Under the pieces are notes generated by a model that saw only the letters and a program-made list of their open reading frames with translations, was not told the DNA's origin and did no database searches. The translations under genes and the position numbers were made by a program. Below, piece after piece: positions 1 to 28,735 of a stretch of DNA of 32,373 nt (position 1 is the first letter of the stretch; the number at the start of each line of letters is the position of its first letter). This stretch comes from a virus: positions 1-32,373 of IMG/VR virus record IMGVR_UViG_3300029319_000257; one strand, given 5' to 3'.

Positions 1-216
1 TCTGTTTTCTTCGGGGACAAAAGCATTTTTCATTATAGCAACAGGTAGTTCAAGGTTTTGTATCACCTCTTCACTAACACCTTCTTTGTTCGCCCAGTTC
101 ATTAGCCGGTCGATATTGCTATGAATAACACCATCGATAGTAGCACCTTCTATATCAATTGATATTTCTTGGGCTTCTTTCAAAAACTTCCGCCACTCTG
201 TTAGTAGTTTTTTCAT
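1..216 (-). CDS. Leader-bearing hypothetical protein, 3' end beyond window
   Basis: Only the first 72 codons are inside the window. The product begins MKKLLTEWRKFLKE, the 14-residue leader shared with the next five genes upstream, with L12-x-E14 fitting a prohead-protease type cleavage site. The visible body after the leader is acidic and rich in I, N and E, with no motif that I recognise. The ATG overlaps the stop of the metalloprotease-like gene as ATGA, so translation is probably coupled. The first 26 bases are identical to the start of the gene at 3224 and then differ at synonymous positions (CGG/CGT, AAG/AAA, TTG/CTG, GAA/GAG). What I see is the open frame and the leader; virion location is inferred. 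It was found by extending the repeated leader, and the start is secure because of the overlap. Confidence 0.85.
   Translation of the reverse strand, partial: MKKLLTEWRKFLKEAQEISIDIEGATIDGVIHSNIDRLMNWANKEGVSEEVIQNLELPVAIMKNAFVPEENR
191..216 (-). repeat. 26-base direct repeat, copy 2 (leader start)
   Basis: Identical to 3199-3224 on the same strand, about 3 kb away. Together with the diverged copies at the starts at 1037, 1549, 2145 and 2609, it forms a six-member family of 5' coding segments attached to unrelated bodies. Confidence 0.9.
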
Positions 217-1037
217 ATTCCCACGGCCTCTGGGTATTTCGTTTTAGCATACTCAATATACTTGTCACGTAGTTCCTTGAAAAAGAAGTCTTTGAGTTCT
301 TCTTCAGTGTATTGAACTCTGTATTCCCCAGGAGTTTCTCTTTCGTCTTCGGCGTTCATCTTGTCTCGGCGTCGGCGGAACATATCAAAGAATTGTTTGA
401 GACGCCTATCCAATGCTTCCGTGTAGGGTATCTTGTAATACTTTGCTCTTTTGTAAACTTCTTTAGTGTAAGAATCTGTTTCAGATTCCGAAGCATAATA
501 TCCACGGACACCATCAAGTTTATTATAGTTCCAGTTGAGTCCGCCCATAGGGTTGTTAGTGCGGGGGTCGGAAGTTTTCAACACGTCATCAGTTTGGCCG
601 CCATGCTGAATCTCGTGGATGGTGACTGATTTGAGTTCGCCAAGATAAGAGTTCAGGTCTTGCTCATTGAAGCCGATGTCCAAATAACTATTGACTACCA
701 TATAACTGTCTCTTGGGTCTTGTGGGTCTCCCATAAAAGCCCCGCCGATTTGGAACTTGTCCCCTGTTTCTTCTGCTAGTTTTTTATCAATATAAAATTT
801 GAACGAAACAGAATACATTTTTTCGTCAAGTTCTTTTGGTAGTCCTTTACCTCTTTCATATCTTTTGGGAGTTACAAGGATCAAGTCCTTTTGTGAGTTT
901 TGGACATTCTCGCCAGGAATAACCTCGTCAATAATATATTTGACATAAGGTATTACCTTGCGGGTCAGTTCTGTTGTGGCTGCTTCGTACCTTCCCTCCT
1001 GGAGAAAGCCTCGCCACCCTTCCATAATCAGTTTCAT
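213..1037 (-). CDS. Leader-bearing HExxH putative zinc metalloprotease
   Basis: A 274-residue protein. It starts with the variant leader MKLIMEGWRGFLQE (L12-x-E14). A zincin motif, H141-E-I-Q-H145, follows a hydrophobic-ended strand, and the downstream segment YYASESETDSY (residues 180-190) offers E184 or E186 as a third metal ligand, as in gluzincin-type small phage metallopeptidases. The C-terminal third (about 190-265) is highly charged and probably helical, with an RRRR run at 221-224. No signal peptide or membrane segment is visible. It overlaps both neighbours by ATGA junctions. The HExxH and the leader are seen directly; peptidase activity is inferred from the motif, and the substrate is unknown. 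If the leader is a capsid-targeting signal, this would be a head-packaged protease, possibly ejected into the host. Confidence 0.75.
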   Translation of the reverse strand: MKLIMEGWRGFLQEGRYEAATTELTRKVIPYVKYIIDEVIPGENVQNSQKDLILVTPKRYERGKGLPKELDEKMYSVSFKFYIDKKLAEETGDKFQIGGAFMGDPQDPRDSYMVVNSYLDIGFNEQDLNSYLGELKSVTIHEIQHGGQTDDVLKTSDPRTNNPMGGLNWNYNKLDGVRGYYASESETDSYTKEVYKRAKYYKIPYTEALDRRLKQFFDMFRRRRDKMNAEDERETPGEYRVQYTEEELKDFFFKELRDKYIEYAKTKYPEAVGI

Positions 1038-1549
1038 TTTTTAGATATCCTCATCCGAGAAGGAGTAGGATTTAGTTTTGTTTTGTTAATATGTTTTGCG
1101 AGAGCGGATGTAAAATTAGGCAAAGGAGTGTTATCAGAAAGACCCATAATCTTGCTAGTATATCTCTCAATATACTTGTCTAGGAATTCTCTCTCGACCT
1201 CATCGTCTATTATCTTCGAAAATTCAGGATCGATTCCCAACATCTTTACCCAAGGTTTGTTGTCTAGTTTCCCTTGGTTTATATTTTTGGGACTGGTTGC
1301 AGCCTTGAACAAACCTGTAACATTGTCCACTATTTCAGCCCCATCTCTTAAAACAGTGCCAACCACTGGGATCAGACCCAGCCCTATTTTAAAGCCCAAT
1401 TTTCCTAGTTTCTTAAGTTTTGATTGTTTTTCGGAAACATCTACCTCAGAAGACAATATTTCTACCACAGCCCTTAGTTGGCCAACTGTAATAGGTTGTT
1501 GTTCCTCTTCGTTCAAAAATTGTCGCCATTCTATCATTATCTTTTTCAT
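1034..1549 (-). CDS. Leader-bearing protein with glycine-rich hydrophobic segment
   Basis: A 171-residue protein beginning MKKIMIEWRQFLNE, so it has the common leader with L12-x-E14. A second leader-like segment follows at residues 20-32 (ITVGQLRAVVEIL), which resembles the N-terminus of the 288-residue protein upstream (VTMSQLRTMVEQAL). Residues 49-83 are glycine-rich and hydrophobic (for example GLGLIPVVGTVL at 57-67), long enough to lie in or cross a membrane, although no clean flanking topology signal is visible. Residues 98-150 are acidic and helical with aromatic residues (KPWVKMLGIDPEF at 98-110), and the tail is basic. It overlaps the genes on both sides by ATGA. I do not recognise the family; membrane activity is a guess from composition. 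Confidence 0.75.
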   Translation of the reverse strand: MKKIMIEWRQFLNEEEQQPITVGQLRAVVEILSSEVDVSEKQSKLKKLGKLGFKIGLGLIPVVGTVLRDGAEIVDNVTGLFKAATSPKNINQGKLDNKPWVKMLGIDPEFSKIIDDEVEREFLDKYIERYTSKIMGLSDNTPLPNFTSALAKHINKTKLNPTPSRMRISKK

Positions 1550-2145
1550 CGTGATTGTACCGTGTAAGTTTTTTGCTCACCGCCTCCAAAGCTATCTGTC
1601 TTAAAGTCATCTTTACGCATGACTGTAATTACTTTTATTGTGTCCGGGCCTTTTCGCATATCCAAAACAGCGATGACATTGAGGGCTGGGACTTTGCCTC
1701 TGCCTACCATACGGATATGGAAAGGCTCGTCGTTGCCCAGTTCGCCGTTCGCATAGTCCTGAATGATTTTGCCGATGGCTAGTTCAACCGCTTGGATGAT
1801 TGCTCGGTTGGAAATCTTTTCGTCGTGACGGAACTGTCGCTCTTTGCTGTGCTTAGTTGCCTGAAGGTCTGTATCTTTTAAGTTGATAATAACATTGACG
1901 CCTTTAACCTTTGTGCTGTATGCTTGTTCGGCATCAAGGTCAGCCATCTTTTCTTCCATAAGATGGTCGGCTGGACGTCCTTGGCTTATCCAGTCTTCAA
2001 CAACAAATACTTTTTGGTCTTCCGACAAATTCCAGAAAACCTCTTGGAGTTCTTCGCTCAAGCGAGAGGCATACTGCTTGTAAACCTTTTCATTTACTTT
2101 TTGTACTTTGACAAAATTACGCCACTCGGTCATCAACTTTTTCAT
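1546..2145 (-). CDS. Leader-bearing protein with possible RelE/BECR-like domain
   Basis: A 199-residue protein starting at MKKLMTEWRNF. The frame is open 35 codons further upstream, but that extension would overlap the previous gene by 105 bases, whereas the ATG at 2145 forms a TAATG junction with its stop and restores the leader. This leader is the exception: residues 12-14 are V-K-V and the nearest x-x-E is VNE at 17-19. Residues 20-75 are charged and probably helical. Residues 84-182 show beta-alpha-beta patterning with HSKER at 99-103, a helix (ISNRAIIQAVELAIGKII, 111-128), and two closing strands ALNVIAVLDM and IKVITVMRKDDF. That layout recalls small RelE/DUF4258-like (BECR-fold) RNases or toxins. 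The leader is seen directly; the fold assignment is a hypothesis from pattern. Confidence 0.72.
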   Translation of the reverse strand: MKKLMTEWRNFVKVQKVNEKVYKQYASRLSEELQEVFWNLSEDQKVFVVEDWISQGRPADHLMEEKMADLDAEQAYSTKVKGVNVIINLKDTDLQATKHSKERQFRHDEKISNRAIIQAVELAIGKIIQDYANGELGNDEPFHIRMVGRGKVPALNVIAVLDMRKGPDTIKVITVMRKDDFKTDSFGGGEQKTYTVQSR

Positions 2146-2609
2146 TATTCGTCCCCGAAGTCGTTTCTTTCTTGCCACTCGTAAGACACACTGTCTTCTT
2201 TGATTGGTCCGCCTTTTGCCCAAGTGCGACAAGAGCGAGCAGAGTGACACTTGAAGTGGTGCATCCAGCAGTAGCCAAGTCTGCCATCGTCGTCAGAAGT
2301 CACGCCTGGCATACAATCGTCCATTCGTGGGGAAATATCAAAAGCGGTGCAATTACCGCAGTTAGACTTTTTAGCAGCCTCTTCGGTCGTGTTCCAATAT
2401 TCGGCTATATCTTTCCAGTAATCACCTGGCTCATCTACATTGAGTGGTCCATACTGGATGTGTTCTGCTTTTATAGAAGCGTCACGATTCTTTGTGTTGA
2501 GTTCCAGGTCTTGGGTTGCAGGCGGACAAACAAAATCTTTTGCTGCCTTGATAACAACCTTCATCTCCTCTTGGAGAAACTTTCTCCACTCGGTCATCAG
2601 TTGTTTCAT
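2145..2609 (-). CDS. Leader-bearing seven-cysteine protein
   Basis: A 154-residue protein starting MKQLMTEWRKFLQEE (L12-x-E14). The body holds seven cysteines at 28, 84, 87, 99, 114, 121 and 127, with histidines at 117 and 118. The core runs CGNC-x11-C-x14-C-x6-C-x5-C, with GYCWMHHFKC at 112-121. This spacing looks like a metal or iron-sulfur binding module rather than a secreted disulfide protein, since no signal peptide is present. It loosely recalls the G-[YW]-C end of high-potential iron-sulfur proteins, but the hydrophobic position of that signature does not match. It begins one base after the TAA of the previous gene (TAAATG) and its own TAA overlaps the next ATG. I have the impression that this module recurs in marine phage proteins but cannot name it; function unknown. 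Confidence 0.75.
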   Translation of the reverse strand: MKQLMTEWRKFLQEEMKVVIKAAKDFVCPPATQDLELNTKNRDASIKAEHIQYGPLNVDEPGDYWKDIAEYWNTTEEAAKKSNCGNCTAFDISPRMDDCMPGVTSDDDGRLGYCWMHHFKCHSARSCRTWAKGGPIKEDSVSYEWQERNDFGDE

Positions 2610-3224
2610 TTACCACTTCCTACAAGACCAATAGCGAGCCTTTGTTTTTGGTCCTGGGTTATCACAGTTATGTCGAGCCCTGAAAGACTTGCGGCGCTTT
2701 GGGTTGGACTTTTTAATTCTCATTTTTTTGTCCCCAAAGTTAACCTTCTTTACGTTCCCCGTCTTAGGATCTTTGACATAAACCTTGAATTTCTTTACAT
2801 CGCCACGAGTAGGCTTGTTAAGGGTAACTTTGCGGCCACGATATTCTGCTTCGACAACTACATCGTCCCAAAATTCTATATCTTCAACAATAGTGCCATC
2901 ATCATAAGAAGCGTCAGAAATATAATAATACTCTTCATTTAACTCACCTGCCAGCAAACCCTTAACACTGACGCCCAGGTTTTTTTGGAGGGATGCTTCC
3001 ATTTGATCCATCACTTCTTGGAATTCTTCTGGTGTCCGTCCAGTTTCGGCGGGCCAATCATCCATACCCAGAACCCAGTCTTGACCAGCATCATCTAGAG
3101 CATTTTCAATTTCCATTTTAATGTCGGCGTGCTTACCAAAGTCTACATCTCTCTCGACAGATGCCTCTACATCATAGTCAATCTCTTTCAGAAATTTACG
3201 CCACTCTGTTAGTAGTTTTTTCAT
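2610..3224 (-). CDS. Leader-bearing protein with basic Cys-containing C-terminal module
   Basis: A 204-residue protein starting MKKLLTEWRKFLKE (L12-x-E14). The N-terminal half (15-125) is strongly acidic, with many D and E, including an EEYYYISDASYDDGTIVED stretch at 97-115. The C-terminal 60 residues are strongly basic: KKFKVYVKDP, VNFGDKKMRIKKSNPKRRKSFRARH, C187, and a terminal YWSCRKW with C201. This acid/base split and the RH-x-C...C ending resemble a C-terminal module that I recall from structural or scaffold-associated proteins of marine T4-like phages; it may bind DNA or metal. The ATG overlaps the stop of the 288-residue gene (ATGA), and a purine-rich AAAAAGG lies just ahead. The charge pattern is seen directly; virion role and DNA binding are inferred. 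Confidence 0.78.
   Translation of the reverse strand: MKKLLTEWRKFLKEIDYDVEASVERDVDFGKHADIKMEIENALDDAGQDWVLGMDDWPAETGRTPEEFQEVMDQMEASLQKNLGVSVKGLLAGELNEEYYYISDASYDDGTIVEDIEFWDDVVVEAEYRGRKVTLNKPTRGDVKKFKVYVKDPKTGNVKKVNFGDKKMRIKKSNPKRRKSFRARHNCDNPGPKTKARYWSCRKW
3199..3224 (-). repeat. 26-base direct repeat, copy 1 (leader start)
   Basis: The first 26 bases of the gene starting at 3224, through the second base of codon 9, are identical to bases 216 down to 191. Identity stops abruptly at the ATG on the upstream side and at the wobble base of R9. Beyond that, differences are mostly synonymous up to codon 14. This suggests duplication or recombination of the leader coding segment rather than of a whole gene. 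Confidence 0.9.
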
Positions 3225-4087
3225 CCTTTTTTACCTGCCTTTGATTTTTTGCCGTAGTTACCTCGGTCCCCACAAGCTGACGGAGTAGGGCGGCACTTCG
3301 GATACTTTGCTCGTTTTTCGCCGCTTTCACGACCGCAGGCACTACATTTCTTTCTGCCTGTCTTTTTATCTTTGCGGCAGGTGTTGCAATCCACCCATCC
3401 GCTTTTGCTACCCTTGGCACCTTTGCGACCAAACCAGTCACGCAGACTTGTTTCAGACGAAGGTTTCTTGGTTAGTTTTCTTTTCTTTTCCTCGATAGGT
3501 TCTTCTTCGAGGTTCTCATCTTTTTTTACAGAGTTGATGTATTTTCTGTAAACTGCGGCGGCAGAGGCTTTGCCCGCTGCCTTGGCTCTTTGTTCCATAG
3601 CCACAGCGGCTTGAACCTTGTGAGCGTGTGAGCGGCTGGAGTTTCTAATCTTGGATACGCTTTTCTTTGCGTCTGCCTCAGTGGCGAACTTCAGTCCGTG
3701 GATTGTACCCTTGGGGTCCTCATCTGTGTAGAGATCGCTATGCTTTTTTGACTTTGCCTTTTGTCCTTTTTTTCTTGGGATGCGAGGGTTACTTTTTTTT
3801 TCGGACAACTCTGAAATGGCTTCACGGATCATATCACGGAGAGGGTCTTGCTCGACACTTTCTTTTTTGCTTTTGTTTCCCCAGTTGGCAGCACCAACCT
3901 TACGGCACTTCACTAGGGCACCAGAGGCATAAGCGGATGGCCAAACATCATAACGTGCCTTAACCTTGTGATAGCAAGCGTCCTTTTTGCCACCGCTTTT
4001 CTTCTTCTTCTTTTTTTTACGCTTCTTCTTTTTCTCGACAAGGGCTTGTTCAACCATTGTTCGAAGTTGCGACATTGTCACTTTCAT
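3221..4087 (-). CDS. Basic three-module protein with Cys-rich tail
   Basis: A 288-residue, very lysine-rich protein. Its N-terminus, MKVTMSQLRTMVEQALVE, is an amphipathic helix of a different type from the neighbours' leader but also ends in L-x-E (16-18), directly before a lysine run at 19-30. Three modules follow. One spans about 36-74 (ACYHKVKARYDVWPSAYASG, C38 and C61). One spans about 125-190 (SRSHAHKVQAAVAMEQRAKA, VYRKYIN). One spans about 207-280, SLRDWFGRKGAKGSKSGW then C234, C237, C248, C251, C265 and C272, probably zinc binding. I recall similar modules as separate small proteins in phages and large DNA viruses. A second L-R-x-M-I helix lies at 83-95. The GAGGG ribosome binding site is 6 bases from the ATG. 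Role as a head-packaged nucleic-acid-binding protein is inferred. Confidence 0.75.
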   Translation of the reverse strand: MKVTMSQLRTMVEQALVEKKKKRKKKKKKKSGGKKDACYHKVKARYDVWPSAYASGALVKCRKVGAANWGNKSKKESVEQDPLRDMIREAISELSEKKSNPRIPRKKGQKAKSKKHSDLYTDEDPKGTIHGLKFATEADAKKSVSKIRNSSRSHAHKVQAAVAMEQRAKAAGKASAAAVYRKYINSVKKDENLEEEPIEEKKRKLTKKPSSETSLRDWFGRKGAKGSKSGWVDCNTCRKDKKTGRKKCSACGRESGEKRAKYPKCRPTPSACGDRGNYGKKSKAGKKG

Positions 4088-4096
4088 TCTTAACCC

Positions 4097-5044
4097 TCAT
4101 GCCAATAAAGCAATCCTCATTAAGTAGGCATCAGAATCAATAAAAGGAGCATCTTCTTTGCGTTCGTCAAAAACCTCTTGTGGCATCTCGCCGATGTCTT
4201 TGTAGCCAGACGTATCCATCAGTCGAACTTCTACATCATAAGCCAGCAAAGCCTTCACAAGTTTCATGGCTTTTTTATGGGCATCAGCATCCAATCCCAA
4301 CAGGACTGGTGTATCGTTTTTTACAATCTTTCTGAAGAGTCTGCTGTCTTCCCGAAGTGTTGAGCCGAGCAGTGGAATACTGTTCTCGCCAGCAACGATT
4401 GCGTCAAAGACACCCTCGACCAAAGTGACCTCTCGTTCCCAGTCAATCAGCAGTTCGTTAAAGATGATATCTTTGTTCCCTGGTCCGTTGAGATAAGGAG
4501 GCCAGACATTGGGGTCATATGTGCGGGACGTAAAAAAGTTACAATAGCCTTCTTCGTCAAACGATGGGAGAATAATTCTATTTTTGTATTCCCCAGAAGC
4601 GCAGTAGCCAATCTTCCAATAGAGAACGTCCTTCTGTTCAACGGCACGTTTGCGGAGATAGTTTAGGGGCACTCTTGCCGAGGCAGGGTGAGAGCGACCA
4701 GTAAGTGTTTGAAACTCATTTGGAAGGTCAATTCGTTGCGGAGAATCTTCTTCCTTCGCAAACAGGTTGTCTAGGTCGCCCAACTCAATATCGGCGTCAA
4801 AGTCCTTCCATCTATGGATGTGACTTACATCGCCCCAACGCCTGACAAGGCGTCGTAAATTTTTGGTGCGGAAGTCACACGCCCAGCACTTAGCTACATT
4901 CTTGTCAAAATTGACTGACAGCTTGGGTTTGTGGTGCGAGCAACAGCGAGACTCGTATAGATACTCCTTACCTTGACGATACGCTCTGCCGAGTATCTCG
5001 TCAAGGATTTTCTTTTTCTTTACTGAATTAGGGTCACTAAACAA
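4097..5044 (-). CDS. DNA primase, T4 gp61-like (zinc finger plus TOPRIM)
   Basis: A 315-residue primase that would make RNA primers for lagging-strand synthesis with the phage replicative helicase. The N-terminal zinc-ribbon candidate is C34/C35-S-H-H then C53-x2-C56 (KCWAC). The TOPRIM core shows VTLVEGVFDA with E210 and G211, and LLGLDADA with D252 and D254, the expected acidic catalytic positions. The length is close to T4 gp61, about 340 residues. The start is a TTG immediately after the TGA of the nucleotidase gene and in the same frame (TGATTG). No ATG or GTG is usable nearby and the first internal Met is far inside, so the protein arises either by reinitiation at TTG or by TGA readthrough. 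It ends 9 bases before the next ATG. Confidence 0.85.
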   Translation of the reverse strand: MFSDPNSVKKKKILDEILGRAYRQGKEYLYESRCCSHHKPKLSVNFDKNVAKCWACDFRTKNLRRLVRRWGDVSHIHRWKDFDADIELGDLDNLFAKEEDSPQRIDLPNEFQTLTGRSHPASARVPLNYLRKRAVEQKDVLYWKIGYCASGEYKNRIILPSFDEEGYCNFFTSRTYDPNVWPPYLNGPGNKDIIFNELLIDWEREVTLVEGVFDAIVAGENSIPLLGSTLREDSRLFRKIVKNDTPVLLGLDADAHKKAMKLVKALLAYDVEVRLMDTSGYKDIGEMPQEVFDERKEDAPFIDSDAYLMRIALLA

Positions 5045-17956: not shown

Positions 17957-20900
17957 TTAATAGCTTCCGCCTTCACTACCCCCGCCGTTTGGCCTTGGAA
18001 CGGGCGATGTAAAACTTCCCATATTTTCAGGACGCCTAGGCTCTCTAGCTTTAGACATTTCTTCAGCACGACGGCGTTCCATATCGGCAGGGGTCATATT
18101 CCTAAATTCGGGAGGAATATTTTCTGGTGATATTTTTCCTGGATCAAACTGCTCTGGAGAAATGGGTCGTTCGTTGGCAAAAGGATCTTGCTGCTGAGGC
18201 GGGACCATACCTTCAGGCAAACCTACAGGTAATTCATCCCCTGGAGAGAATGGCTGATCTAATTCTGGAACTGGTTGTCCCATTCCTGGAAGGTTAGCCG
18301 GAGGAGGGACAGGATCACCTGAACCAACTGGAATTGGTGGAGGTGTTCTGTTTATGCGAGCTTGATCTGCTTGTTGATTTTCTAAAATCTTTCTGTTTCG
18401 CTGTCCTCTGCTTCTAGCGTTGGTTTCTTGCTCCTCTGAGATGTCTTCAACCTCTCGGTCCAACTCTGCTCTAAATCCAACATTCACAGATAACTTACCT
18501 AGCTCTACTAGTGAGCAATAGTCATACGGCCAATTGTATGTGTTGCCAGCAACCCCTAATTCATCGCTAACATAGAGACCCTTGGTGTATTCTGTTTTCT
18601 TTCTTCGCAAGAAGTCTTTTTGTTCTTCAGGCAGATTGTCCGCAATGACTCCAAAAACATTATCGTAAGAGAACGATCCTGGTCCACCGTTTAACTCTTC
18701 TGATATAAATCTTGAGAAGGTATCAACACCTCGTTCCTTAACCTTAAACACCATCCATTTAATGTCAGGGATAAACCCATCTTTTGTTCCGACTGGGGCA
18801 ATGTCTAAGAGATCAACCCTTGGGTGCCCATTACGGGGTAAACCTAGCTCTAACTCCTTGAGTAAAAGCTCTGGGAATATAGTTTTATTACCAACACCAG
18901 AAACTCTTTCGCCTGGCATATAGTGATCGATCGCTGAAACGCTAGTCTTCATAGAAGCTCCGATGTCTGGCATTATGCCCTGCCAAATATCTGCGAGATC
19001 TTGTCGAGACAAAGCAACTGTGTGCTCCAGAAGATAAACGACGGGAATGTTTACATCTTCTTCTGTCGGCAAAATCGAATCATATTCGTCGCCACCAAAA
19101 GGATTAATAAATTTCGAAACCTTCGGGTAGTTAGGCGGCAACAAAGAAGTAAGCTGTTTTTTGAGCGGAGGCGGGAAAGAATACTTTGTAAAGTTTTTCC
19201 TAAACTCTTTGACCTTAGGACCTAAAGAATCCATATTGCCCTTAAGGGTCACCACTTTCATTTCCTGACTTTCGGGGTCTAAGTAGAATGGCATCGCCAA
19301 TACAGCCTCAGAAATTGTTTTCTCTCCATTTTCTGCCAACTGTCCAAGCCTCTTGGCTTTTTCAGGTTGGAAAGTTCCAGGAGATTGAATCTCCTCTTCC
19401 TTAAACCCAACCAATCTGGCCAGCGAATCAACTTCACGCCCCGAGTCTATCACAAATTTTGGAACCTTTCTTACTAGTTCGACTTTTGCCGTACCACTCA
19501 GGAAGGTGCCTGTGGCTTCATCAGATCGTTGCGCTGCTGAGCCTGTCGGATTGCCCAAAAGTCTTAACTCTGTTGAATCAACGGACACATCGGAAATGAA
19601 CATAAACACACCTTCCGCAGAAGACGAAGGCATTGTGCCATACTGATGCCACATACCTCTAACCTTTGGATCGTGCTCCCCAACATTGACCGAAGAACTA
19701 AAAGCATAATCATTATTTGCTGTCGGGAAGTCTAATATTGGACACTCCCACTTAGGCATAATCACCCACTTGTTTTGGTCTCTTGGAGAAACATCAGCCG
19801 CATCTGTCGGATAAACGTTATCAACAACTATTGAAGCATCCAAGTCTTGTCTATTTTGCCAAGCTCTGTTAAAACCATAAGCTGGCACACCATCAAGGCT
19901 ATGCACCTGGTTGTTTGTTCCAACAAACGATCCAGAGTCAAAATCATAATAATATCCATTTTCATTGTTATATTCAACAAACAATTCTTCGCCACTAAGA
20001 ATTTCTCTGAGTGTTACCTCGCCGGACTGCCTTGGGACGTAGGTAATTCTGACAACGCTTGGACCATAAAAATACGTTGGGGTGTATGGCGCAAATTCTG
20101 CTCGGTGGTAAGGCCACTCTTGCCCCTGTGGAAGTCCACCAGTCTGTTCTGTCGTTGCAACCGTAAACAATGGAGCCAACAAGCCACCAGCAAAAGGACC
20201 TGGCGTGGTAACGCCTTCACCTGGCTGGTCTGGCTCAACAGCAGTTCCAACAATTTCGTTTCCATTAAATCTGTCTGTCCGCAATTGCTGGGTAATACTC
20301 ACCGTACCAGTACCAGAATCGGCGGAGGAATCTGTCATAAGATCACCATTATCTTTTGCCAACACTAACGCATTAAAAATAGCGCCGCCGAGATCTACTT
20401 CGCTGCCAACGCCTTGAACACCGACTGTGTATTCAGTTGCACTTGCTTTAGCTGGAGCACTTGCTGCTGCACTCTTGCTAAAGGTAAACGTTACTTGAGT
20501 TGTTGTTCCACCAGAATTAGAGCCAGTTATTGCAAAGAAGTTTCCATCTATAAGATTCTCATCAAAGTTATTCATTGTCAAGCTTGCAGTTGCTTGTGCT
20601 CCATGAGTAACAGCAGTCGGTGCTGACGCAGATGGTCCAGCAGCCAACATCTCGTTCCAATCGAATGACCCTGTGGCTGTGGCAGGCCCAAAAGCAGCGG
20701 GGTTGCTGTACATCATATGCCTATCAGTTTGTTTAAGCCCTATCTCCATAATATAAGCCTTGTTTTTAGAAACTGAAACTGTCCTAGCCTCATTTTGTTG
20801 TGCTGCTGCGGCACCAGCAGGATTGTCTGCCGGGGCTCTGGAAGGTATCTCAGCAACAAACTTAGACATAAACCCGCCATCTTCTTTCTTTTTCAAGAAG

Positions 20901-23900
20901 AATCTCGGTATATTTGCCATAAAGTTTGACATTCCAAGGCGATATAAATCATCATCAAACTTAATAAACTCTGTAACGGTTACCAATTCCTCACCTATTT
21001 CTTGTTCAGAAGTAACAAGTGCGCCTGTGGTGGGAACAGAGGCAGTTATCTCTTGATAAAGAACTGGGTTTACGTCCGATAAAACTATGCCTCTTTTATC
21101 TGTCGAGATATGCTCCATTGGCTTAAAGATACCCTCAAAGGGGACAACATCCGAATAGAACATTCTGTGCGGTGCGCCACGGCTGCCATCCTTTAACTGA
21201 TCGCCTTCAACGCCAGCATCTAACTTAAAGAAGTCGAAGTTGTCTGCTGCACCCTCTTTTCTTCTGCGACGTCCACCTGGGATTGTAATAGCTGTCTCCG
21301 CAGATCCTGAGATACCAATGTCGCCACTGGGCAATGAGAAAAAGATAGAGGCACTCAGTTGCCCATGCAATGGATCTTGTATTGAGGACGATTGTATCGA
21401 TCCCATACCCTTACGCATAATAGGATACTGAACACCGACACCTGCCTTAATAGAGTTATATACAATACCTGGTGCGAAGAATGGCCTTGAAATTGTTCTA
21501 AAAGCTCTAGGTTGCTTATCGTTTGTTGTACCTGGCGACGGTGGCTCTAAAGTCTTATAGTTGGGCGCACCATTGGTATAACCCTCTCCACTATATTCAA
21601 CTGCATGACCGTAAGATTGAGAAAACAATCTTCCCAGTTCAAGAGTTCTAAGAACTGGATAGAAGCCCTCGTAAGGTAACAACTTTAACAGGGCTTCAGA
21701 CTTTATTTCTAGATGCCTTGGGTCCTTGTTGAACTCTTTATCTTTAGATCCAGCTTTCATAAAGCTCTTAAGATATTCTGCTGCGTCGGTTGTGGCGTAG
21801 CGAGGCAAAAATTCTCTATCAGCGCTGTTAAACGCAGACCGAGAACCAGTGTCGTTTGTCGCACCAGTAACACTGAGAGCACCAGACAAAACAGTACCAA
21901 AACTACCAAGAGTTTTATACGTTGGCATAAGTTCACTAATCCGATACTCAGGGATAATTGTGTGGTCTTTTCCTAAGTTTCTTAGTTCTTGTTGCCAATC
22001 TTCGTAGCTATTATACCACGGATACCTAGCTGGTGCAAGTGTATTTTTCTTTGGTCCGTCTACAAATTTTCTTCTCTTAGCTGCAATCCAAGCAGGTCTG
22101 GTAACTGGTCCGCCAACTGCATTAGCCTCAGCGATAAACTTAGCAGTGCGATTTGAAATATCTGTTGTTCTAATTTTTTCTGTTGGCAATGTATAAATGT
22201 ATTGTGGCGAGTTCAAGCTAGAAGTGTTGAACCTGATACCGCCTAGTTCAGAACTGCTGTTTGCAGCATTACCGCTCATTACTATACCATAATGAGGCAT
22301 CATCAATTCGCCAGCAGGCATTGTCGATGCCATACAGAATAATAAGTTTGTACCCTGATCTGTGCCGCTATATGCAGACGTTGGCAATACCCCAGAGAAC
22401 TCGGCGTAGTAAAAAGAGTCTAGTGGCCATATTGAGCCAGTTCCAGGGTTTCTGCTTCCCCCCTGACCAGTGTAAGGTGTTGCTTTCAGGGGAGGATCCC
22501 AGCCAAAGTTACCTGAAGAATTGCCTTGAAAAATTGCTACTGGGAACTGCTCATCCATTTTTACAAAGTAATCAAACGAAGAAGAATAGCCTCGACCTTC
22601 CAACTGTCTATCATCTGCTCTTCTTTCCCAGTTGCTATTAAAATCTTGAATGTTGGAATCGTGAATAAGACCAGACATATTTGTCACTGTTGCAAGCAAC
22701 GTTTGAGCCGATCCTGTTTTAACATCTGATCTCCAGAAACTGTTTTCATAAAAGTTTCTTGCTCTTGTTGCTGAAAGATAAGTGTAAATTTCTTTTGGAT
22801 AAATTGTTTCTTTGTAGCTCATCAATTTTATTAGCTCTGAGCCGTCAACCGATGGGTCAACATTGTCTACAAAAGTATCTCTAAGAACTTCATACGGTCT
22901 TTTAAGTTTACCAAGTTTAAAATCTTGCTTATTTCCTAAATCTATATTTAAGCCCCTATTTGCAAAGCCCTGCAATTCGTTACCGTATGAGTATTTTACA
23001 GTTACGTCAACAGATTTATTTTCTGTTTGTCCAGCCGTACCTCGTTTAGTTTTCACCTGATGTATGACAGGCTTATATCTTGAGGTTACTGGCGGCTCTT
23101 TATATCTTTTACTGATGTGATGTATAAGAATATTTCCGTTTGCGCCGGCAAAAAGCTGGAGGGAGTTATCATTATCAGTCACAGTTGATTTCTGAAAATC
23201 TTTAAATGTCTCCATCTGTTCCGTAACTGTTAGCTTTTTACCAGTTTGTTGATCAACGCTTTCTGCTTTCTTTGTCAACATTGGAGAATCAATTAGATAA
23301 AAGTTTTGTTTAGCATTAAACTTGCCTTTAGTTGTATATTGTCCAAAGCGAGTTTGAGTCCAAGGGGACCAAAGTCCAGCACCATTTCTTTCCCAAATAT
23401 AAGTGATGCCACCAGCCGAGTTGCTAAAAACACCCTTTGCTTGTGCTGCAAAACTGCCTGGGTAAATTCTGTCTTTTTCTGCCGTGGCCAACGAAGAGGT
23501 GTACAGGGTTATGTCGTCTGGATACCTGGATGACGACAAAATGAAGTTGTAGTAATTATCGCCAACATTTTGTGTTGGATAATCTCCAAGAGCATCTTGC
23601 GAGTGTGACAAAGCTAAGAACCAACTATATCTGTCACCAGCAGGGATTGGTCTCGTAACAAAAGCATTATCTCTTGACGACCCTGTTTTCATTATAGGAA
23701 CTAAAGGCGATTGTAAATTGCCAGAAACAAGTTCTAGTCTTAGCGTGGTATTTCGTTGTGTCTTGTGAACTGCCACAAGCGATGCTGTGTGGACTGAAAG
23801 ATCATCGCCGTGAACAGAAGGAAGGGACACTATTCCTGCATTAAGGGAACTTAAATCTGTAGAATCAAAGCGATCCAACAGGGTTACCAAAGAAGATGTC

Positions 23901-26900
23901 TGGAAACCACCAAAGCCCGTGTGTCGTTTGAGAAGTGTATTGTACCGTTGTCTTACCTTTATGTTTCTAAATGGCAACGCATTATTTGGTGAGAATTGGT
24001 CCGAAGATCTATCTCTAAACAACTGCTTGGAGTCTTCCTTACTACCAGGCGCAGAAAATCTATCTGCTATGATCGTCTTGTTAGTTCGAACACCATCACG
24101 CTGTCTTGGCGCAGTGTATTCAACCGAGCCAGTCAGTCCATCATTTCTTCTGCTGACCGAGGTCAAGAAGGCCGTTGGCATTGTACCACTAGCCAGCGAG
24201 GCTGTGTGATACGAATCAGGATTAAACGCAAAGTCAACATTAGTAGCAGCACGGTTGTTAATATTGACAACTTCATAGTTTTTGGTAAAGTTACCTAAAA
24301 TACTAACGCCACCCTCAGGCGATAAAGTTCCAGTTGTTGATTGTATGTTAGCAACACTTACAGGACTAGAAGCACCAGTACCACGTTTGTACTGTCCCTT
24401 AGGTGTAGGGGCATCTGGTTTGTCGAACTCGCCTGCTGCATCAGCAATCTCTAACTTGTATGATTCTTTTCGTACATTATCAGACTGGTTAAGCTGAGCA
24501 CCTGGAGGCGCTGACCTTGCCTGTTGCCCGCCCACATGTGCCTTTGTAAATGGAGACTGCATAGCAGTTGGTCGAACATGCAAGTTTGAAAAATCAACGT
24601 TCTCTAGTCCTGCATCCTGAAGTTGTTTTTGGTATCCAGAATTAATTGTAGAACTAACTGGAGTAAACGGTAAGACGACCTGTCCTTGCAAGTCGTTACC
24701 GTCAACAGATGCACTTAATTGACGTTGTGCCTTCTGGTTAGGGATAATGACATCCTTTGTGTCTTGATCTAATTGTAGTCCACCAAACTTGACCTTTGCG
24801 TTTCCTACTTCTGTCTTCTTTTCTTTCTCGTTACCTATGCCCTGATTAGTTGGTTGAAACTCTTGAGGCAAAAACGCACTAATTGTGACTAGACCATTAG
24901 GAGAATAGAAAGACTTCGCCTGCTTAAAGATGGCCTCTCTGGACGCCATCACCCCAGGATCTGATTGTGATATAGTAACTGTATATCTTTCTGCTCGGGT
25001 CATCCACCACAAGGTATTTTTATTTTCAGGCGGTGGCGACTCTGGTAAGGGCGCTCTCAAGAGATCATACGAAACAGGACTAACGAGCCCTGCGTTACTT
25101 ACAATCTGAATATTTTTTGGTTTCACCACTTGTGGCGGTGGTTTGATTGGCTTAGCTGCTTGTATTTGCCTCTGAGGCGGAGGTGTTTCATCAATTTCTG
25201 GCGTAAGCCCAGCAGGCTCTGGATTACTAATTACATTTGCTTCGTTACCGCCAACTATAGATTGTCGGAGAGACTTTTTCCTATTGCCCATAAAAGTGTA
25301 GTTAAATTTAGATCTTTCTAACAAGTGACTTTCAACTATGTTTCTAACACCTGGAGCGACCTTAGCAGACGCTGGGAATAGCTGCTCTAACATTTGTCCG
25401 ATCGAAGAGTCTAGCCATTTGTAGTAGTCAAGATACTTTTGTAAGTCAGGTGTGTTACCAACCTTTGAAAAGAATATTTGTCTAAGTTTTTCCATAGACT
25501 TATAGTTTGGCCTGTATCTGTTAACTGGATCGCCTATCAGATCATTAAGCTCCTCAACAGACGCAAACAAATGCAGCATCCTCTCAGAGATACTTCTGTA
25601 CATGCTTTTTTCTATCGCATAGTAAAATGTTTCAGGGCGAAGCATTGGTGCATACGCAGCGTCATCCATATTCTTAACTTGCACCATATCACTACTGACA
25701 GCATACTCTGGTAATTCGAGCCTGTCTGTATACAATAGCTCTTTTCGAACTGGCGTTGAGGAAGCAGGGAAAAAGTCGCCTCGGCCAGTGTGCTGTCTAG
25801 AATTAATGTGCTGAGGTGATTCGTGATAAAGATCGCCACCACTTCCAGAATCTAAAGACCCAGAGGAAAAATCATTTACATTAAAGCGTCCAGAGGAGTC
25901 ACTTCCTGTTACGTCAGCAAAATCCCAATGCAGTGCTAAGGTATCTACTTGAGGAATGTATATCCCTGGGTTGTCGCTTTGGAAAGTGTATGCCTGTCTA
26001 GTAGGATTAAACGTACCATAACTATCGACACTCCTAGCGTGCATATCTATTGTACCAGTTGGAAGAACATCCGTCCAGTAGCGGAAGCTCGATGCTCTAA
26101 CATCACTGCGAGTCACAATAGATCCTGTAAAGTTTACTCTTCTGGCTCCAACATAATATCTTTTTGCAGCAGAAACAATATCAGACCCTGACCTATAGGT
26201 TAAAGATCCAGTCTTGTAGTAGCTTTCTTGTCTAAGACCTGAATCATAATTTACAGCATAAAAGTCTATATCGTACCCGTCATGCAAATTAGCGTTAGCA
26301 CCAGAGGTCTGCGCAAATGGGAACCTCTTTGGGTGAACAGACAAAGCGATATTCCACTTTTGATTCTCATACACGTTCCTAAAAACAGGAGAAACTATGA
26401 GTTCATTGTCGTGTCTATCTAGAACTTTAAAAAATACGTCCTTAACTTTGTGACCAGGAGATGTGATCTCGGCCATTTGTGATGCAGATTTAATCGCAAC
26501 AACGTGCAAACCTGCATCTACCTGTGCGCTTTGGTAGGTTGTATCAGTGGAGGACGACAGTAGTTTGTGCTCTCCTGCTGGAGTGTGCCAACCAAACAGC
26601 GACGACGTGACCACTTGTATTGGAGTGTGGTCGAGTGTGTCTATCTCTTTTCTGTTTGGAAAAACAAATTCTGCTTGTGCAGTGAAACCAAACTCTATTA
26701 AACTAACACTACCACTACTACCACTTATCACACCATAAGATTCTGGCAAGTCAGAATTTGGATATTGATAGACCGTAGCGTTAGACGAATCTTGGTCTAT
26801 TAGCCCCGTAAAGTCAGCATATTTTTTATTGCTTGTATCTGCCCTGTAATTGTTTTCTAGTTTGTAGGTTGAGTTATCAGAATAAACATTGACTTTCAAT

Positions 26901-28735
26901 ATTTCTTCATCTATACCAAAACATCTAACCAAGTTTCTGATGGCTTTTTCGTTACCCTTTGACTTAAGGACGTGGTTTAAGTTGTTGTAGATATTTTTGT
27001 ATATTGTATTCTTAATCGATGCAAGATCATATTGAAAGTTTATGCTCCCATCTCTTTTTAGAAACTGTGCCAGCAGATCAGCGTTTTGGAAAAGTTCTGG
27101 GGCTTCCATCCCCAGTTCTTCTACTAGCCTATCGTTGTGAGGAAACTCAAATATGCTACCTGTAGCGCTCCCGCTAATGTAGTCCATTGATTTGATGCTT
27201 GTCAAATAAGATATTTGAGAATACAAAGTATCAAAGTATGTCGATATTATCTGCGTCGAATTTTTAAGTTCGGACCCAAACCTAGAATCCTCTTCTACAA
27301 TCCAGTCTGGAAATGTGTTAAGAATATACGAGGAGTTGTTTCTGTCGTGCTCAAGCCCTACCTGCTTTAGTTCGTCTCTACGAACAGTTAGCACCGAAGC
27401 CGACGGTATAACAATTGGATCCTCTGGTTCTGTGCGTCCAGATACTGACTGGGTTAACGCTTGAAGTGTTACGGCAGAGCCAGTATCTCTAGCGCCGGCC
27501 GCATACCCTGTCCAAGCTCCGTTAGACAGCCTGCCAGAATAATCTAGCACAACATTATCAACACTTCCTGTGCCAGACACCCCCTCATTAAACTTGTAAT
27601 ATACACCAAGACCTACGTTTGCGTCTTGCGTGTCTGTTCCGCCGTGAACATGAGTAAACCAATTCCTGCCAATATCTTCCCCACTTCTAGCTGTTTTCCA
27701 AAATCTAAACTCGTCCAAAGCGCCAGAAAGTTTACCACGTCCTTGCATAGAGTTAGAATCAGATACACCCGATGGAGCTACACGAAGAGCGCCAATGTTA
27801 CCAATTAGACTACCTGTAACAAGGCTGATCTGTCCGGCCTGATGTCCTACAGGAGATATGCCTGTTTCATGACAAACACCATTTATATAAAAATCAATCG
27901 TTGGCGAACTTTCGGAAGTATTAAAGACAAAAGCGAAATGATTAAATCCGCTACCTGTAATATACTTGCCAACTCCGCCAGTGGTTGGGACCGACTGAGT
28001 GACGTACCCTGCCGTACCCGACAGCATTGTAACCAGAAATCGATCCTCTGCACTTTTTGATAATTCAATCCTTAAGTTACCGTAGCAACCATTTGTTTCG
28101 TCATCATCAACAGACCCTGTAGAAACTCCATTCCAGAGATCAAAGATAACCTGCCTTGGAGACTGGGCTGTTGAAACTGCTCCCCCACCTGGAATTGCAG
28201 ACTTTGACAGGAAAAATTCAACAGTTGATCCACTAGGTCCACCAAACTCCAAATTGTTCTGTCTAAAATTAGAAGAAAATACTGTGCCAGAATGAGGACC
28301 ACCCTTTATTTGAATGTATTCATCTTTGGGCGAAGAGAAATAATGGGAACTGTGAGATACGGCTGTACCATAGTTTGTCCCGATATTTACAAATCCAGTT
28401 GACCTGGGATATCTTTCGTTGAAAATGTACTTTTCTATTGGACTTAGATCATTATAGAACTTTTCTTTTTCGTAAGCTGATCCGTCATAGGGATAGTTTT
28501 GAAGAATATAGTTGAAAGAGTTTTCGTAGTACTTTTCAGCAGAACCATACTTTGCAAACTCGTCTGGATTACCATAATCCAATGGTGCTGTGAATTCTTG
28601 CTGACGTCTTATACTTTCGCTAAGATGATCAGCAGATTCAATACCGCCACTTAAAGCACCCACTGCGCTGCTCTTGAGGTATTTTCCTACAGAGTTGGCC
28701 TGCTTACTATTTTCAAATAACTTTTTTATGCTCAT
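17957..28735 (-). CDS. Giant 3592-residue tail/fibre protein with LamG-like domain
   Basis: A single frame of 10.8 kb, a third of the window. Approximate domains: residues 60-110, a short aromatic N-terminal region (SFNYILQNYPYDG); residues 140-420, a concanavalin/LamG-like sandwich (FNHFAFVFNTSESSPTIDFY, LSGALDEFRFWKTARSGEDI, YYKFNEG), a fold often used for glycan binding; residues 460-630, a helical region with KSKGNEKAIRNLVRCFG recalling the KGT segment of P2 gpI-like tail proteins; residues 1175-1215, a proline-rich linker; about 2720-2840, a glycine/serine/threonine-rich sandwich; about 3450-3590, a proline/glutamine-rich tail ending GGGSEGGSY. SGS turns recur throughout. The ATG overlaps the previous stop (ATGA). 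It is probably a composite baseplate/fibre protein involved in host binding; the exact role is inferred. Confidence 0.82.
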   Translation of the reverse strand: MSIKKLFENSKQANSVGKYLKSSAVGALSGGIESADHLSESIRRQQEFTAPLDYGNPDEFAKYGSAEKYYENSFNYILQNYPYDGSAYEKEKFYNDLSPIEKYIFNERYPRSTGFVNIGTNYGTAVSHSSHYFSSPKDEYIQIKGGPHSGTVFSSNFRQNNLEFGGPSGSTVEFFLSKSAIPGGGAVSTAQSPRQVIFDLWNGVSTGSVDDDETNGCYGNLRIELSKSAEDRFLVTMLSGTAGYVTQSVPTTGGVGKYITGSGFNHFAFVFNTSESSPTIDFYINGVCHETGISPVGHQAGQISLVTGSLIGNIGALRVAPSGVSDSNSMQGRGKLSGALDEFRFWKTARSGEDIGRNWFTHVHGGTDTQDANVGLGVYYKFNEGVSGTGSVDNVVLDYSGRLSNGAWTGYAAGARDTGSAVTLQALTQSVSGRTEPEDPIVIPSASVLTVRRDELKQVGLEHDRNNSSYILNTFPDWIVEEDSRFGSELKNSTQIISTYFDTLYSQISYLTSIKSMDYISGSATGSIFEFPHNDRLVEELGMEAPELFQNADLLAQFLKRDGSINFQYDLASIKNTIYKNIYNNLNHVLKSKGNEKAIRNLVRCFGIDEEILKVNVYSDNSTYKLENNYRADTSNKKYADFTGLIDQDSSNATVYQYPNSDLPESYGVISGSSGSVSLIEFGFTAQAEFVFPNRKEIDTLDHTPIQVVTSSLFGWHTPAGEHKLLSSSTDTTYQSAQVDAGLHVVAIKSASQMAEITSPGHKVKDVFFKVLDRHDNELIVSPVFRNVYENQKWNIALSVHPKRFPFAQTSGANANLHDGYDIDFYAVNYDSGLRQESYYKTGSLTYRSGSDIVSAAKRYYVGARRVNFTGSIVTRSDVRASSFRYWTDVLPTGTIDMHARSVDSYGTFNPTRQAYTFQSDNPGIYIPQVDTLALHWDFADVTGSDSSGRFNVNDFSSGSLDSGSGGDLYHESPQHINSRQHTGRGDFFPASSTPVRKELLYTDRLELPEYAVSSDMVQVKNMDDAAYAPMLRPETFYYAIEKSMYRSISERMLHLFASVEELNDLIGDPVNRYRPNYKSMEKLRQIFFSKVGNTPDLQKYLDYYKWLDSSIGQMLEQLFPASAKVAPGVRNIVESHLLERSKFNYTFMGNRKKSLRQSIVGGNEANVISNPEPAGLTPEIDETPPPQRQIQAAKPIKPPPQVVKPKNIQIVSNAGLVSPVSYDLLRAPLPESPPPENKNTLWWMTRAERYTVTISQSDPGVMASREAIFKQAKSFYSPNGLVTISAFLPQEFQPTNQGIGNEKEKKTEVGNAKVKFGGLQLDQDTKDVIIPNQKAQRQLSASVDGNDLQGQVVLPFTPVSSTINSGYQKQLQDAGLENVDFSNLHVRPTAMQSPFTKAHVGGQQARSAPPGAQLNQSDNVRKESYKLEIADAAGEFDKPDAPTPKGQYKRGTGASSPVSVANIQSTTGTLSPEGGVSILGNFTKNYEVVNINNRAATNVDFAFNPDSYHTASLASGTMPTAFLTSVSRRNDGLTGSVEYTAPRQRDGVRTNKTIIADRFSAPGSKEDSKQLFRDRSSDQFSPNNALPFRNIKVRQRYNTLLKRHTGFGGFQTSSLVTLLDRFDSTDLSSLNAGIVSLPSVHGDDLSVHTASLVAVHKTQRNTTLRLELVSGNLQSPLVPIMKTGSSRDNAFVTRPIPAGDRYSWFLALSHSQDALGDYPTQNVGDNYYNFILSSSRYPDDITLYTSSLATAEKDRIYPGSFAAQAKGVFSNSAGGITYIWERNGAGLWSPWTQTRFGQYTTKGKFNAKQNFYLIDSPMLTKKAESVDQQTGKKLTVTEQMETFKDFQKSTVTDNDNSLQLFAGANGNILIHHISKRYKEPPVTSRYKPVIHQVKTKRGTAGQTENKSVDVTVKYSYGNELQGFANRGLNIDLGNKQDFKLGKLKRPYEVLRDTFVDNVDPSVDGSELIKLMSYKETIYPKEIYTYLSATRARNFYENSFWRSDVKTGSAQTLLATVTNMSGLIHDSNIQDFNSNWERRADDRQLEGRGYSSSFDYFVKMDEQFPVAIFQGNSSGNFGWDPPLKATPYTGQGGSRNPGTGSIWPLDSFYYAEFSGVLPTSAYSGTDQGTNLLFCMASTMPAGELMMPHYGIVMSGNAANSSSELGGIRFNTSSLNSPQYIYTLPTEKIRTTDISNRTAKFIAEANAVGGPVTRPAWIAAKRRKFVDGPKKNTLAPARYPWYNSYEDWQQELRNLGKDHTIIPEYRISELMPTYKTLGSFGTVLSGALSVTGATNDTGSRSAFNSADREFLPRYATTDAAEYLKSFMKAGSKDKEFNKDPRHLEIKSEALLKLLPYEGFYPVLRTLELGRLFSQSYGHAVEYSGEGYTNGAPNYKTLEPPSPGTTNDKQPRAFRTISRPFFAPGIVYNSIKAGVGVQYPIMRKGMGSIQSSSIQDPLHGQLSASIFFSLPSGDIGISGSAETAITIPGGRRRRKEGAADNFDFFKLDAGVEGDQLKDGSRGAPHRMFYSDVVPFEGIFKPMEHISTDKRGIVLSDVNPVLYQEITASVPTTGALVTSEQEIGEELVTVTEFIKFDDDLYRLGMSNFMANIPRFFLKKKEDGGFMSKFVAEIPSRAPADNPAGAAAAQQNEARTVSVSKNKAYIMEIGLKQTDRHMMYSNPAAFGPATATGSFDWNEMLAAGPSASAPTAVTHGAQATASLTMNNFDENLIDGNFFAITGSNSGGTTTQVTFTFSKSAAASAPAKASATEYTVGVQGVGSEVDLGGAIFNALVLAKDNGDLMTDSSADSGTGTVSITQQLRTDRFNGNEIVGTAVEPDQPGEGVTTPGPFAGGLLAPLFTVATTEQTGGLPQGQEWPYHRAEFAPYTPTYFYGPSVVRITYVPRQSGEVTLREILSGEELFVEYNNENGYYYDFDSGSFVGTNNQVHSLDGVPAYGFNRAWQNRQDLDASIVVDNVYPTDAADVSPRDQNKWVIMPKWECPILDFPTANNDYAFSSSVNVGEHDPKVRGMWHQYGTMPSSSAEGVFMFISDVSVDSTELRLLGNPTGSAAQRSDEATGTFLSGTAKVELVRKVPKFVIDSGREVDSLARLVGFKEEEIQSPGTFQPEKAKRLGQLAENGEKTISEAVLAMPFYLDPESQEMKVVTLKGNMDSLGPKVKEFRKNFTKYSFPPPLKKQLTSLLPPNYPKVSKFINPFGGDEYDSILPTEEDVNIPVVYLLEHTVALSRQDLADIWQGIMPDIGASMKTSVSAIDHYMPGERVSGVGNKTIFPELLLKELELGLPRNGHPRVDLLDIAPVGTKDGFIPDIKWMVFKVKERGVDTFSRFISEELNGGPGSFSYDNVFGVIADNLPEEQKDFLRRKKTEYTKGLYVSDELGVAGNTYNWPYDYCSLVELGKLSVNVGFRAELDREVEDISEEQETNARSRGQRNRKILENQQADQARINRTPPPIPVGSGDPVPPPANLPGMGQPVPELDQPFSPGDELPVGLPEGMVPPQQQDPFANERPISPEQFDPGKISPENIPPEFRNMTPADMERRRAEEMSKAREPRRPENMGSFTSPVPRPNGGGSEGGSY

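Follow-up and report, generated by a model that had tools for sequence, protein, structure and literature searches.

A 14-residue leader shared by unrelated phage proteins is a probable capsid-targeting tag

The internal proteins IPI, IPII and IPIII of T-even phages carry a capsid-targeting sequence that is cut by gp21 (PMC9026906, PMC9958956, PMC3012670), and these proteins have anti-restriction roles (PMC12373910). gp21 cleaves after L/I-x-E, and the propeptide of gp23 has 65 residues (PMC9026906). Here, we describe a likely counterpart in a stretch of 32,373 bases from an uncultured virus (IMG/VR record IMGVR_UViG_3300029319_000257), the whole of which we call the window. Six genes near its first base, with otherwise unrelated products, begin with a 14-residue leader of consensus MKxLLxEWRxFLxE, which is probably a capsid-targeting tag.

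Like the T-even internal proteins, the leader-bearing proteins are unrelated proteins with a short N-terminal MK... tag ending in aromatic-x-x-F-[IL]-x-E; they are encoded in small variable gene clusters, and their phages have a gp21-type protease and a gp23-type capsid protein with an L-x-E site. Unlike the T-even tag, the leader has 14 residues instead of 10, with an LLxE segment before the aromatic residue. Furthermore, the lineage is divergent from T4, a locus holds up to about eight tagged genes, the protein bodies fall into 71 families, many of them enzymatic, and there are two leader classes; packaging and cleavage are here predicted from sequence. T4 Alt offers a parallel for ADP-ribosyltransferase (ART) cargo, which here would be packaged and ejected as ART domains on tagged proteins, but these are of the ART-PolyVal type, whereas Alt, which has a propeptide of its own, is placed in a different ART clade (PMC5512222). 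The polyvalent proteins of phages and conjugative elements (Iyer et al. 2017, PMC5512222), predicted to be injected on the basis of their domain content and context, share ART, GNAT, NUDIX and possibly BECR domains with the tagged cargo, and giant multidomain versions occur in the same phages, one of them with an N-terminal leader. In contrast to the polyvalent proteins, the cargo here is mostly encoded by separate tagged genes, leader-like peptides separate the domains of the giants, and the S77 protease is the candidate processing enzyme, whereas metallopeptidase processing has been proposed for polyvalent proteins (PMC5512222). The head ejection proteins of phiKZ and SPN3US (PMC10052503, PMC5694885) also have N-terminal propeptides, which a diverged homologue of gp21 cleaves off behind a short E-ending motif; these propeptides are mostly long and, unlike the leader, do not amount to a single common 14-residue tag.

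What is new here is the scale, the existence of two leader classes and the link to polyproteins, while the principle is already established by T-even phages (PMC9026906, PMC3012670, PMC12373910). A first-pass annotation of the window had proposed a candidate for a little-described system, which holds only in part, as T-even internal proteins are well described. The second leader class and the leader-like peptides between giant-protein domains go beyond that annotation.

The six leader starts that it had placed at 216, 1037, 1549, 2145, 2609 and 3224 are exact, all on the minus strand. W8, R9 and F11 are present in all six leaders and L12-x-E14 in five, the exception being FVKV at 2145. To find further copies, IMG/VR was searched with a pattern in which M1, K2, E7, W8 and F11 were fixed, positions 4, 5, 9 and 10 were partly constrained and residue 14 was free. 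It yielded 108 stretches, of which many contain several copies, with up to eight tagged genes in one locus (L071). Once these loci had been read less strictly and seven whole relatives added, the set comprised 171 distinct complete tagged proteins from uncultured viral contigs. Consistent with the claim that the bodies are unrelated, they fall into 71 families at a BLAST E-value of 1e-4, and in a 69-protein alignment the consensus is continuous only over the leader, MKxLLxEWRKFLxE. Weighted by family, the leader profile reads MK(K/E)(L/I)L(T)(E)WRKF(L/I/V)(N/K)E. Although residue 14 was not selected by the search, E14 is found in 87% of families, and [LIVM]12-x-E14 in 61.5 of the 71. Position 14 has an information content of 3.2 bits, position 15 only 1.0 and position 16 only 0.6, and from position 17 onward the value is about 0.2.

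The leader is not a chance motif, because the anchored core begins 34 of the 1393 genes of the seven whole relatives (31 with E14), compared with 0.045 expected from shuffled N-termini. Among 13 'unanchored' core matches in these genomes, five are N-terminal variants shifted by one or two residues, and the other eight compare with 5.4 in shuffled proteins. A leader in a genome lacking a prohead protease, which the first-pass annotation had named as a finding that would speak against it, was not seen: 257 Gb of bacterial and archaeal genomes yielded 13 pattern matches, none of them a gene start with E14. Bare leaders gave no tblastn match among annotated phages, the peptides being too short or absent there, and a full-text literature search found no paper containing the leader strings.

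The leader matches the T4 tag residue by residue. When the N-terminus of T4 IPII and IPIII (MKTYQEFIAE, read from the T4 record) is aligned with the leader at the glutamate, Y4, F7, I8 and E10 of the tag correspond to W8, F11, L12 and E14, which are among the most conserved leader positions. In the T4 tag, residues 4 and 7 carry targeting and residues 8 and 10 processing (PMC9026906). As a positive control, the N-termini of unrelated genes were clustered blind: in T4 the top-ranking cluster was the T4 tag itself, and in the relatives the leaders described here were recovered. The analogy with T4 that had been drawn from the window alone is thus supported, as nearly all of its testable sequence-level predictions came out as it requires. 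T4-like tags also occur in a Straboviridae phage, Vibrio phage QD01, in which a protein related to the ART-like end of a giant protein of relative G007 starts with MKNLKSFMEE (L248:1480-2595). Two further occurrences were noted in passing. A 54-residue open reading frame (ORF) on the minus strand of T4 (18966-19130) starts with MKTFKEFIKEDM and clusters with the IPII and IPIII tags, and in Prochlorococcus phage P-TIM68 a gene shortly downstream of the capsid gene (L191:1297-2418) encodes two peptides that resemble T4 tags, MMKSFIDFSE at its start and MKNFTSFMEAS farther inside.

G001, a 190-kb contig of a relative, is collinear with the window (primase, RuvC and baseplate at 90%, 82% and 60% identity). 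Among annotated capsid proteins, the nearest come from Rhodothermus phage RM378, Flavobacterium phage immuto and Microcystis phage Mel-JY01, and by their sequences the leader-carrying relatives are divergent T4-like phages, uncultured, of bacteria. The predicted co-occurrence with a gp21-type protease is borne out: among 26 leader-carrying records, 15 contain a Gp23 capsid gene and 14 of these also contain Peptidase_S77, a consistency test rather than a discriminating one, since the records were picked for carrying the leader. In the remaining record, whose contig starts with the capsid gene, the protease would fall beyond the edge, and the 11 records without Gp23 also have no S77. The S77 match of G001 is at contig positions 15033-15455. 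Furthermore, the capsid protein contains LL[RK]E at one place in all seven relatives, and in a sequence alignment this L-[RK]-E shares a column with LTE of T4 gp23 (FLTE/A), VSE of immuto and ISE of Mel-JY01. A comparison of the leader with the N-terminus of the scaffold, also proposed at first pass, gave no resemblance (the putative scaffold starts with MSNMLEQAIVDAQ). These genomes show no excess of the T4-type late promoter TATAAATA, a result that is uninformative on expression time.

The cargo behind the leader is diverse. Matches above the curated cut-off are to ART-PolyVal, GNAT, AAT and tRNA_lig_CPD (2H phosphoesterase; LigT/tRNA_lig_CPD), and NUDIX, RNase_T and AAA_33 kinase domains are matched at strong E-values; matches to ParB and polynucleotide kinase phosphatase are weaker. 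ART, GNAT and NUDIX are among the domains of predicted injected polyvalent proteins (PMC5512222, PMC7824862). Leader and cargo are combined in several ways. Specifically, the body encoded at 1549-1959 of the window follows the leader and a 50-residue segment in the window, stands straight behind the leader in L067, follows the leader and a different segment in L077, and elsewhere stands behind divergent leaders such as MHNIFTGWKRFLAE. Divergent leaders on one cargo body keep W-[RK]-x-F-[LI]-x-E. The idea that the leader was added before an old start codon was rejected, as Met at positions 15-22 is not above background, although single cases such as ...LQE/EMKVV are suggestive.

A second leader, MK[IL]TKSQLRKIIKEEL (MK[IL]TKSQL[RK]KIIKEEL), often outnumbers the first in the relatives and precedes 36 body families in seven genomes, with I12 in 95% and E14 in 94%. 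Its register is that of class 1: hydrophobic at 8, basic at 9, hydrophobic at 11 and 12, and E14. Both classes fall into one N-terminal cluster in G001, and some cargo families, including a SAM-lyase-like family, are found with either. Matches to this family lie in proteins at G009:151253-151675 (above the cut-off), G004:59249-59587 and G002:50184-50417 (both below); the first two proteins begin with a class-2 leader and the third with a class-1 leader. We infer that class 2 does the same job as class 1. A small protein encoded between the protease and scaffold genes has a class-2-like start, MKKSELKNIIKEC, which hints that a class-2-type peptide may belong to the core. Eight small genes close together in G004 (85565-89900) start with MKIGDLV or similar, which probably reflects a short domain that is repeated and not a leader.

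We consider it likely that the leader is a capsid-targeting tag that acts in two steps. First, an amphipathic helix (L4, L5, W8, F11 and L12) would dock unrelated cargo in the prohead core, as the residue match to the T4 tag suggests. Second, as the head matures, the gp21-type serine protease (S77) would cut behind L12-x-E14 and so release the cargo beside the DNA; the motif, the sharp conservation boundary, the protease and the capsid site all point to this cut. With less confidence, we propose that the cargo is retained in the head and ejected into the host on infection, as the T4 precedent and the type of cargo suggest, and that ADP-ribosyltransferases, acetyltransferases, NUDIX hydrolases, exonucleases and phosphoesterases would then target the machinery or defences of the host ahead of phage gene expression, a role suggested by the domains.

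Several points weigh against this account. S77 proteases are general in T4-like phages, so that co-occurrence by itself says little, and L-x-E is a common tripeptide. The window contains no head genes that we could find, and we found neither a cultured member nor a virion proteome of the lineage. Several cargo types, among them DnaQ-like exonuclease and HAD phosphatase, would also be plausible as ordinary cytoplasmic enzymes. Finally, about 13% of families do not have [LIVM]12-x-E14.

The leader, a predicted amphipathic helix, could instead remain uncut and dock proteins on another phage structure in the cell, such as the membrane, the replication complex, RNA polymerase or the phage factory, with L-x-E as the helix end. 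The primase and RuvC genes that adjoin the cassette in the window and its relatives, and the nucleic-acid or nucleotide enzymes among the cargo, would fit such a role. We nevertheless regard it as unlikely: conservation ends sharply after E14, the residues match both the T4 capsid tag and the capsid cleavage site, further tagged genes lie far from the primase, and a class-2-like peptide starts the protein whose gene lies between those of the protease and the scaffold. A leader that binds the core but stays on the packaged protein is less probable still. Asp at position 10 of the T4 tag keeps targeting and blocks processing (PMC9026906), and a minority of leaders, among them that of the window gene at 2145, do not have E14, but the conservation of E14 across unrelated bodies is difficult to explain without a cut. 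Spread of the first 42 bases as DNA, whether as strong translation starts or as recombination points, would suit the ATGA and TAATG gene overlaps and the two MKKLLTEWRKFLKE copies of the window, whose first 26 bases are identical, but is very improbable given the T4 parallel, the conserved W-x-x-F-[LI]-x-E of divergent leaders on the same cargo, and the many synonymous codons at the conserved L4, L5, R9 and L12, which argue for selection on the peptide rather than for DNA copying or a repeat.

The capsid-targeting reading may extend to giant proteins. The body of L019:406-900 is 95% identical to residues 1516-1664 of a 1664-residue ORF (L083), and an 1868-residue protein, which starts with MKDLLHSWNQYLAD, has a NUDIX domain at residues 1423-1506. 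Multidomain ORFs of 1664 and 1871 residues in the relatives contain the domains seen in the tagged proteins. Class-2-like peptides ending in [LI]-x-E (SLIRSLIKEVLEE, LNYLRNLIREAMEDE, LKALIKQTINE and VKSLLKNMIMEQ) are positioned at or near apparent domain boundaries of the giant proteins. The proteins of L154:12950-18556 (minus strand) and of the L083 ORF, in which domains are reshuffled relative to each other, are candidate polyproteins for the prohead protease. Tentatively, and with the balance somewhat against it, we suggest that leader peptides are general module delimiters. Leader-like peptides such as VSLIRSLIKEVLEEE and LNYLRNLIREAMEDE would then separate the domains of polyproteins of 1600-1900 residues, and the prohead protease would split one packaged polyprotein into several free effectors within the head. 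Effectors could move between the formats of separate tagged genes and fused polyprotein, and the W-type and L-type leaders would address one head core.

If the leader is a capsid-targeting tag, a 14-residue signature would turn 'hypothetical' genes of an uncultured phage group into predicted injected effectors with exact mature N-termini: at least 71 families in a single search, to which the second leader class would add others. New anti-defence and host-takeover proteins could then be sought by sequence, and a further short tag would be available for loading proteins into phage heads. It would also suggest that T4, with its three internal proteins, marks the lower extreme of a far broader strategy of head loading.

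The tagged genes of the window and their upstream neighbours are listed in Table 1.

Table 1. Leader-bearing genes at the start of the window and the genes upstream of them
Feature	Coordinates	Strand	Leader (coordinates)	Remarks
Leader 1	175..216	-	MKKLLTEWRKFLKE	gene runs past the contig end; start at 216
Tagged gene	213..1037	-	MKLIMEGWRGFLQE (996-1037)	274 residues; HEIQH metal-binding-type motif
Tagged gene	1034..1549	-	MKKIMIEWRQFLNE (1508-1549)	171 residues; hydrophobic stretch; no family match
Tagged gene	1546..2145	-	MKKLMTEWRNFVKV (2104-2145), without E14	C-terminal domain (1549-1959), possibly RelE/BECR-like
Tagged gene	2145..2609	-	MKQLMTEWRKFLQE (2568-2609)	cysteine-rich body
Tagged gene	2610..3224	-	MKKLLTEWRKFLKE (3183-3224)	C-terminal phrog_7595 domain
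Upstream gene	3221..4087	-	MKVTMSQLRTMVEQ (4046-4087), class-2 variant	
Primase-like gene	4097..5044	-		anchors the cassette; 90% identity to the G001 counterpart

Adjacent genes overlap by ATGA at 3224, 1549, 1037 and 216 and are joined by TAATG at 2145 and TAAATG at 2609, so translational coupling, as had been proposed, is plausible. Pfam gave no useful-level match in the bodies of the window's tagged genes, and no second domain was identified in these small proteins. An intact relative of the gene starting at 216 (L099:4757-5173) has a weak match to GNAT acetyltransferases. We make no metallopeptidase claim for the HEIQH protein, because its AlphaFold model, with a predicted local distance difference test score (pLDDT) of only 37, is unusable. 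The model of the domain at 1549-1959 (pLDDT 70.6) shows a helix followed by four strands; comparison with HigB, RelE and YoeB remained below significance (Foldseek E > 0.05, VIA Z < 6), and a BECR/RelE-type fold is only suggested.

The cysteine-rich body has relatives without the tag in unrelated phages, one of which, in Actinomycetia phage DSL-LC01 (L188:156-890), is encoded immediately before a gene annotated as a capsid maturation protease. The body of the upstream gene has domains in common with cyanophage proteins that are annotated as structural or adjoin capsid genes. In G001, the tagged cassette likewise follows the primase, in the same order as in the window. The remaining genes of the window encode the primase, a nucleotidase-like protein, RuvC, and tail or baseplate proteins, and the tail region (17957-28735) contains a 3592-residue ORF that is present in relatives at 34-62% identity.

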